Shown: positions 25,506-60,977 of the stretch, one piece after another
Layout of the letters: each line of letters starts with the position of its first letter
How positions within the stretch are numbered: the stretch's first letter is position 1
Source of the DNA: Pelagibacteraceae bacterium AG-325-C03
Lineage (GTDB): Bacteria; Pseudomonadota; Alphaproteobacteria; Pelagibacterales; Pelagibacteraceae
Length of the DNA stretch: 64,000 nt
NCBI GenBank assembly: GCA_003283025.1
Contig: QBYC01000001.1
Coordinates: 77,308 to 141,307 of the forward strand
Reading direction: 5' to 3'
Notes under the pieces: generated by a model
Database searches by the model: none
What the model was told of the DNA's origin: nothing
Seen by the model: only the letters and a program-made list of their open reading frames with translations
Translations under genes and position numbers: made by a program

Positions 25506-25551
25506 TAATTATATTTGACATTTTATCACTTTTAGATGAAAGTCTAAATTA

Positions 25552-25695
25552 ACGGGAGAGACCAATTTTTGGCGCCGAAGGAGCAACCACCCCGGAAACT
25601 CTCAGGCAAAAGGACCGTTGAAGTAATAACTCTGGAAAGCAGGCTTAAGCCTCACCGAAGGATTAAATCTCTCAGGTACATAGACAGATGGGGTT
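25552..25695 (+). ncRNA. Tandem glycine riboswitch (two aptamers) upstream of gcvTHP
   Basis: CGGGAGAGACC..GGCGCCGAAGGAGCAA..CCCCGGAAACTCTCAGGCAAAAGGACCG and ACTCTGGAAAGC..CACCGAAGGATTAAATCTCTCAGGTACATAGACAG. Confidence 0.95.
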
Positions 25696-57246: not shown

Positions 57247-57807
57247 ATGAATCCCACACTTAATAAAAGTGATTTTGAAGATTTAACTACCAATCTTAGA
57301 GATTTAGCATATTCATATTTAGAAAAATATAGTCCTTCTAAACAACAATTAAAAGTTTACTTACTCAAAAAATATTTAACTAAAGTCAAGGGAACTAAAT
57401 CAAAAAAAGAAATAACTTCAATAATAGATAAAATAATTTCCAATCTTGAAAAAAATAAAATTTTAAATGATGAAATGTATTCAGACTCTAAAGCTAGAAT
57501 GTTTTTACGACGAGGTTATTCTTTAAATAAAATAAACCAATCTTTAAAAAATAAAGGAATAGATGGTAAATTTATCAAGCAAAGCATAGATAAAATTAAA
57601 GAGGATGAAATAGAGCCAGATTTTGTTTCAGCTTTAAAATTATGTAAAAGAAGAAGAATAGGACCAACAAGACCAGATGATAATCGAGAATTATTTTATA
57701 AAAAAGATATGGGAATTTTAGCAAGAGGGGGGTTTAGTTTTGAATTATCAAAAAAAATTTTAGAGTTAAAAAAAAATGAATTTAATAAATTAATCAAGAT
57801 TATCTAG
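57247..57807 (+). CDS. recX: RecX family regulatory protein
   Basis: RecX-like helical repeats: YLEKYSPSKQQLKVYLLKK, FLRRGYSLNKINQSLKNKGI, GILARGGFSFELSKKIL. Confidence 0.8.
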   Translation: MNPTLNKSDFEDLTTNLRDLAYSYLEKYSPSKQQLKVYLLKKYLTKVKGTKSKKEITSIIDKIISNLEKNKILNDEMYSDSKARMFLRRGYSLNKINQSLKNKGIDGKFIKQSIDKIKEDEIEPDFVSALKLCKRRRIGPTRPDDNRELFYKKDMGILARGGFSFELSKKILELKKNEFNKLIKII

Positions 57808-58910: not shown

Positions 58911-60065
58911 ATGAATTCACTAGGAATTAATAAATCAACAAAAAATACTAAAGTTGTTGTAGCGATGTCTGGAGGAGTAGACTCGTCTGTAGTTGCCGCT
59001 TTAATGAAAAAAGAAGGCTATGAGGTAACAGGCATAACACTTAAATTATATGATGATACAAAACAATCAAAAGAAAACCGTCAATGTTGTGCTGGGCAAG
59101 ATATTTTGGATGCCAAAAGAGTTTCGGAGAAAATTAATATAGACCATAAAATTTTATTTTATCAAAAAAAATTTAAATCTGAAGTAATAGAATCTTTTAT
59201 AGATAGTTATGCTGCAGGTGAAACTCCAATTCCTTGTGTACAATGTAATCAGACAGTAAAATTTAGAGATTTATTCAAATATGCAAAAGATTTAAAAGCG
59301 GATGCACTCGTTACAGGTCATTATGTTTCGAGACTTCAAGTCAATGGTCATGCAAACATGTATAGAGCTAAAGACCAAAAACGAGATCAAAGTTATTTTT
59401 TATTTAGCACAACTCAAGAACAATTAGATTACTTAAGATTTCCTTTGGGTAAAATTGACAAGTCTGAAACAAGATCAATAGCAGAAAAATTAAATTTAAA
59501 TGTGGCTACTAAACCAGACAGTCAAGATATTTGTTTTGTACCTAATGGAGACTACGCTTCAGTAATAAAAAAATTTAGACCAGAGTCTTTTAAACCAGGT
59601 AAAATTCTTGACATTGGAGGAAGACAAATTGGCGATCATGAAGGAATAATTAATTACACGATTGGTCAAAGAAGGGGAATTAGGGTATCAAGCGCAAATC
59701 CTCTATATGTTATCAATATAAATCCAGAAAAAAATATTATTATCGTTGGAGAAAAAGATTGTCTTGAAATAGGAAAAATTACTTTGAGAAATTTAAACAT
59801 TCTAGGATCAAAAAAAGAACTTGATCAAATAATAAATATCAAAGTTAGATCCACAGGGAAAATGTTGAAGGCAAAAGTAAAAATTTTAAAAACATATGCA
59901 GATGTAGAAATTCTTGATAAAGAAACTGGAATTTCACCAGGTCAAGCATGTGTTTTTTATTCAAAAGATAAAATTGGGGATAAGGTTCTTGGCGGAGGGT
60001 GGATACATAAGACTATCAATAAAAACTTATCCACAAACTTAACAGATCTAATAATTACACGCTAA
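58911..60065 (+). CDS. mnmA: tRNA 2-thiouridine(34) synthase MnmA
   Basis: [56 protein letters not shown]. Confidence 0.96.
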
Positions 60066-60103
60066 AAGTGATAACTTTTTTTTTTAAGTGTGATTTAATG
60101 AAT

Positions 60104-60292
60104 TTAATTAAGAGGCAACTCTTAACTGGCCAATTAAGGAAAAGCCGAAAGGTTCAAGCTTAAGGGGCAGAAAGGTGGACCTAGTAGCGCTAGAATAGTT
60201 CATCGGGTACGGCTTGGCGGTAGCGCCTAAACGACGAGCCAAAACTACTAAATTTCTGGGCGAAAGCCTAGAAATTTACGTGGTTTCCTTCC
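60104..60292 (+). ncRNA. Candidate structured ncRNA of unassigned family
   Basis: Locally GC-rich gap with GNRA-capped helices (TTAAGAG-GCAA-CTCTTAA; AAATTTCTGGGC-GAAA-GCCTAGAAATTT), GGCG-gtag-CGCC, and a long-range AAGGAAA/TTTCCTT closing pair; strand is inferred. Confidence 0.6.
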
Positions 60293-60977
60293 ATAGAAAT
60301 CTAGTTAACAAGTAAAATAATATAACACCAACAAAATAATTCCATTCTAAAGCATGTTTAAAATGTGTATTACCTTTAACCAAAAGTATTGGTAGACTTA
60401 ATATTGCTATTGAAGCTAAAACCGAAACTAAAATTGCTTTTAAAACTAAAATTTTTTTATTAATTAAAGCTGAAATTTTATTTTTTAATTTAAAAAAATG
60501 GTAAACAAGTATTCCTTGAGCTATGATTTCAAAAATAATAAATAATAATAAAATTACCCTTCTCATTAATTTATACAATTGAATATCAAATTTAATACCT
60601 AAAAAAATTGAATGGATAGCCAAAAAAAAAGCAGAAAGAATTCCAAAAGTCTTAAACTTATAATTTATATTAGTAAGTCTGCATCTGTTTACTAGATCAT
60701 TATTATTTGACCAATAAAAATATAGAATTATTGCTGTGATAATCATAGCTGGTTTAAAAATTAAATATTGAGGAAAAGTTCTAGAAGCCCTACTTATTGA
60801 TAAGCTCCCATCTAAATAAGGTATTGAAAAACCAGATCGTCCAATTTGATCAACAGTAAAATATGTATTCTCTAGTAACTCAGGATTTTGAGATATAAAA
60901 AGACAAAAATTTATAGCTATTAATGGAATAAAAAATATCCATAGACTCAATTTTCTTATTTGAGTTATTTCATTCAT
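60276..60977 (-). CDS. Pr6Pr-like multi-TM membrane protein
   Basis: 233 aa, six TM-like segments, YFTVDQIGRSGFSIPYL. Confidence 0.5.
   Translation of the reverse strand: MNEITQIRKLSLWIFFIPLIAINFCLFISQNPELLENTYFTVDQIGRSGFSIPYLDGSLSISRASRTFPQYLIFKPAMIITAIILYFYWSNNNDLVNRCRLTNINYKFKTFGILSAFFLAIHSIFLGIKFDIQLYKLMRRVILLLFIIFEIIAQGILVYHFFKLKNKISALINKKILVLKAILVSVLASIAILSLPILLVKGNTHFKHALEWNYFVGVILFYLLTRFLWKETT

Follow-up and report, generated by a model that had tools for sequence, protein, structure and literature searches.

In the window, by which we mean the whole 64,000-nucleotide stretch of DNA that was analyzed, mnmA (tRNA 2-thiouridylase; Pfam PF03054, PF20259 and PF20258) occupies positions 58911-60065 on the + strand. 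It is followed by a convergent open reading frame of 233 aa at 60276-60977 on the - strand, which the initial annotation called a membrane protein and which has no Pfam family. The gap between them is, as that annotation had noticed, richer in GC than its flanks (0.42-0.52 versus 0.14-0.36 in 100-base windows). Using cmscan with Rfam 15, we found that 60101-60242 (+) matches RF02035, the IMES-2 RNA, at 143.4 bits (E 3.3e-37) over model positions 1-141 of 141, an end-to-end match 89 bits over the curated gathering score of 54.7 bits. A permissive Rfam scan of 59950-60450 gave no believable second family, and the genome has a single copy of IMES-2. The locus is a full-length IMES-2, a marine small RNA already in Rfam, and not a new kind of RNA. 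The initial annotation had described a candidate RNA of unassigned family, which is wrong, and had stipulated that a family assigned by cmscan would make the RNA known, so by its own clause this one is known and not novel. A literature search found no paper on IMES-2.

Two other features of the window are worth recording. There is a glycine riboswitch aptamer (RF00504; 68.8 bits, E 3e-12) at 25543-25627 (+), and an open reading frame of 186 aa at 57247-57807 (+) matches the second domain of RecX just under the Pfam cut-off (24.2 versus 26 bits). ARAGORN called no tRNA or tmRNA anywhere in the window.

That the gap encodes a structured non-coding RNA, as first proposed, is strongly supported by both fold energy and covariation. 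The + strand folds at -69.3 kcal/mol compared to a mean of -48.9 for shuffled sequences (z -5.3; none of 200 shuffles was as low), while folding of the - strand is weaker (z -2.3). For the alignment we took 39 distinct copies, which represent six genera within one family. Two-sided changes, the compensatory covariation that had been proposed as a check, occur in 34 of 45 pairs, and not one of 500 shuffles gave as many. Counts of this type are inflated by kinship among the rows, and the nested structure guided the alignment, yet the excess is large. The covariation score is 0.47 versus 0.20 in shuffles, and standard pairs fill 94% of the cells of the 39-copy alignment, with all of the slid controls falling far short.

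Based on the cmscan alignment and the pair counts, all four consensus helices of RF02035 are present in the window copy. Helix 1, with a GCAA tetraloop, lies at 60108-60125 and has seven pairs, all of them formed in 100% of cells and five with two-sided changes; it is the 7-bp helix that was picked out by eye, and it covaries. Helix 2, with its inner helix and a GNRA-type apical loop (60126-60170), follows the Rfam consensus and has two-sided changes in 13 of 15 pairs. In helix 3 (60174-60181 with 60197-60204) all eight pairs have them, and in helix 4 (60211-60219 with 60232-60240) five of nine do. One position of helix 4 is never paired in any of the 39 copies, and is a G.A mismatch in the copies that we read.

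The hexamers GCGCUA in loop 3 (60187-60192) and UAGCGC in loop 4 (60221-60226) are complementary and form a kissing contact, with two-sided changes in three of the six pairs and 94% of cells paired. Five combinations keep five or six of the six pairs: GCGCUA/UAGCGC, GUGCUA/UAGCAC, GUACUA/UAGUAC, UCGCUG/UAGCGA and GCACUU/UAGUGC. Two-sided changes at three of the pairs preserve the contact across lineages (seven loci). A scan of all unpaired columns found no other unnested contact with two-sided changes. The structure line that cmscan prints for RF02035 does not include the contact between loops 3 and 4. Covariance models omit pseudoknots. We do not claim the contact as new, and the original description of IMES-2 may already show it.

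Other helices proposed from the letters of the sequence fared less well. The GGCG-gtag-CGCC hairpin enclosed by GGCT/AGCC holds up in its outer part, as GGCT/AGCC belongs to helix 4 of the Rfam model, but the inner GGCG/CGCC helix does not. None of its pairs changes on both sides, its outermost pair can form in only 11 of 35 sequences, and its bases lie instead in helix 4 and loop 4; because the loop 4 bases pair with loop 3, the inner helix would compete with the kissing contact. Pairing of TAGTT with AACTA would disrupt the strongly covarying helix 3. The long-range AAGGAAA/TTTCCTT pairing would break helix 2, and its TTTCCTT is not conserved in the sister loci.

Beyond the end of the RF02035 model lies the 12-bp hairpin with a GAAA loop (60250-60277) that had also been noted by eye. 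It is present, as the core of a longer hairpin at 60243-60285, and on its 3' side it runs into the stop of the convergent gene (60276-60977 in the ORF list), as had been stated. All 27 loci that we examined have a hairpin at the equivalent place, with energies of -16 to -26 kcal/mol, and in most a T run comes after it; on the simplest reading, the longer hairpin is most likely the intrinsic transcription terminator of IMES-2. The U tail is weak in the window copy and strong in most relatives, and a generic terminator scan did not call the window copy's hairpin, its T run being poor.

The likely start signals are found on the other side of the RNA. An extended -10 element, TGATTTAAT, lies at 60091-60099 (+) and is TGNTATNNT-like in most relatives, and a candidate promoter element, GTGATA, lies at 60068-60073 (+), separated from the -10 hexamer by 20 nt (21 nt in several relatives), with GNGAT invariant in an 18-sequence upstream alignment. 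Upstream of these, two tandem 9-mers, TTATCCACA AACTTAACA, at 60027-60044 (+) overlap the end of mnmA and have conserved core columns. The 18 diverse copies have in common TTATYCACA-like 9-mers about 66-84 nt before the RNA, tandem in many of them, AAGTGATA about 35 nt before it, and the extended -10. The whole transcript, as predicted from the conserved extended -10 and the terminator hairpin, would run from 60105 to 60290 (+), about 185 nt. A generic promoter scan found no promoter upstream of IMES-2. We also considered a regulon sharing GTGATA and the -10 within this genome, and rejected it, as matches were at control level using a pattern whose 21-nt gap misses the window copy (gap of 20).

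The first 9-mer, TTATCCACA, is a perfect match to the DnaA-box consensus; read as a TTATNCACA box that might place the promoter under DnaA control, it is perfect in the window copy, with near-matches in relatives. DnaA-box-like 9-mers occur across the whole window at the frequency expected by chance, so it is only their conserved position that counts. Tandem boxes upstream of the promoter might mean that DnaA controls IMES-2, so that a compact RNA with kissing loops is tied to the state of replication in SAR11 cells, and that the RNA has a global regulatory role in an order where 6S RNA was not detected; we regard this as a long shot.

Among 398 sampled genomes of the window's order of marine bacteria, 207 have RF02035, with one copy each. 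A sample of 386 genomes from the class gave matches in only three, all of the same family, and in no other order. A broader model (R2) added only six weak matches; we rejected these as divergent IMES-2, since those that we read resemble coding sequence and pair poorly, and we took them to be chance. Phages do not appear to carry IMES-2: none was found in the phages collection, and 16 viral contigs that match an 18-base motif have no real IMES-2 match, so we rejected that idea.

Within the order, the presence of IMES-2 is patchy. In the window's genus, nine genomes without IMES-2 have no full-length mnmA match either, so these absences look like assembly gaps. Eight genomes of this genus, with completeness up to 94%, have no believable mnmA match, probably because assemblies repeatedly break at the IMES-2 locus. 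In g3 the absence looks real, because several complete genomes have the MGMT locus but no RNA. At seven IMES-2-negative g3 loci we noted a GATAAC-N-ATTAATTATC-like inverted repeat upstream of MGMT, beside an integrase-like gene, which is possibly an integrase site. In one of these g3 genomes without IMES-2 (G011), position 626973 is the end of recA, and the unassigned gap between recA and a protease listed for 'Ca. P. ubique' HTCC1062 (PMC2704228) starts at the next base. On the basis of this adjacency, G011 is evidently HTCC1062, where IMES-2 looks truly absent; this also identifies the order as Pelagibacterales. We considered whether the recA-protease gap of P. ubique (PMC2704228) could be a hidden IMES-2, and rejected this because we saw no IMES-2 features in the sequence. 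In three g3 loci, the stretch from recA to the next gene is rich in hairpins, with GGTTACAGG...CCTAACC in two of the three. A RecA tree places one carrier as sister to a non-carrier (support 93/98). Given that some genomes of the order live without IMES-2, its function is not essential to all of them.

In the genomes that have it, IMES-2 is found in four unrelated neighbourhoods: between mnmA and the membrane protein (g1, g6 and g9), between DUF2938 or an integrase and MGMT (g3), between SNase and SRAP (g2), and between RmuC and SelO (g8). Despite these differing neighbours, it is accompanied by the upstream elements, with the 9-mers at nearly the same distance, and by the 3' hairpin. IMES-2 is thus not the leader of one gene, and because its promoter elements are kept despite differing neighbours, it is best read as an independent gene.

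Comparison across relatives shows that the RNA has four hairpin domains, all of which covary, that loops 3 and 4 form a kissing contact, and that RF02035 is matched in full. With these features, we consider it probable that the window locus is a single-copy, separately transcribed, trans-acting IMES-2 of about 185 nt that is compact and works by binding protein. Transcription would begin just before helix 1, from the extended -10 promoter, which is conserved and would have a regulator site upstream of it, and would end at the 3' hairpin. We are less sure of the protein-binding step, which is suggested by structure alone: the folded RNA may be a compact particle to which a protein binds, serving as its scaffold or titrating it, instead of pairing with mRNAs.

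A contrasting view is that IMES-2 is an antisense-type sRNA pairing with mRNAs, probably with Hfq on the terminator tail. Its promoter elements, its position in trans and the terminator hairpin, which in most relatives carries a U tail, would all suit such an RNA. However, apart from loops 3 and 4, which are taken up by their mutual contact, no conserved unpaired stretch reaches seed length, and conservation covers the whole fold and not one segment. The conserved unpaired bases are in GNRA loops, short internal loops and the mutually pairing loops, leaving no obvious exposed seed, and for this reason we favour the protein-binding particle and consider the antisense reading unlikely, though with a real chance of being correct.

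A further idea is that IMES-2 binds RNA polymerase, either as a diverged form of 6S RNA or in its place. The lengths are similar, and 6S RNA (RF00013) was detected in none of the 398 genomes of the order at the stricter filters used, while four control genomes were positive. But IMES-2 has four covarying hairpins and not one long bulged rod, and there is no RF00013 match in 59950-60450 at E up to 10. The genomes without IMES-2 also lack a 6S match, so the two are not mutual replacements, and we rejected IMES-2 as a 6S replacement given that RF00013 is missing from all 398 genomes, with or without IMES-2. We regard the 6S reading as very unlikely. If 6S were truly missing from an abundant marine order, that would merit a proper search.

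A cis element, either a structure in the mnmA 3' UTR or a terminator between the convergent genes, would fit the window copy, which sits between mnmA and the convergent gene with its 3' hairpin overlapping that gene's stop, but in other genera this RNA, along with its upstream elements, has different neighbours, making this reading highly improbable. That the locus is part of the chromosomal replication origin is barely credible and was rejected, as the DnaA-box-like TTATCCACA, although upstream at a conserved position, has no box cluster around it, GC skew is positive on both sides of the site within the window with no switch there, and two sampled complete genomes have no clear skew minimum at IMES-2.

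We therefore return to an independently transcribed, probably protein-binding RNA. The window's IMES-2 belongs with good support to a known orphan family, and its gene model is fuller than the Rfam match alone. For an orphan RNA from a bacterial group that ranks among the ocean's most abundant, this gene model is one that can be put to use, supplying a likely start, end and promoter, a loop-loop contact that can be mutated, and natural genomes with and without IMES-2. If the promoter reading is true, it would be a first lead to the function of this RNA.

Among known RNAs, IMES-1 (RF02034) belongs by name to the same series of marine motifs. We rejected it as a substitute for IMES-2 because it had no match in 30 genomes of the order, although the search matched nowhere, so its absence is unproven. 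6S RNA (RF00013) is like IMES-2 in its length of about 185 nt and in being an independent gene, but it forms a long rod with a central bubble, whereas IMES-2 has no such rod and is not matched by the RF00013 covariance model. RF02035 itself is like the window copy in sequence and in all nested helices over the full model, in its occurrence in marine bacteria and in being a single-copy gene, and we found no difference that would set the window copy outside the family. What the window copy adds to the printed model structure line is the probable terminator hairpin, the candidate promoter elements and the contact between loops 3 and 4, so that likely signals for start and end and a loop-loop contact stand beside the RF02035 match.
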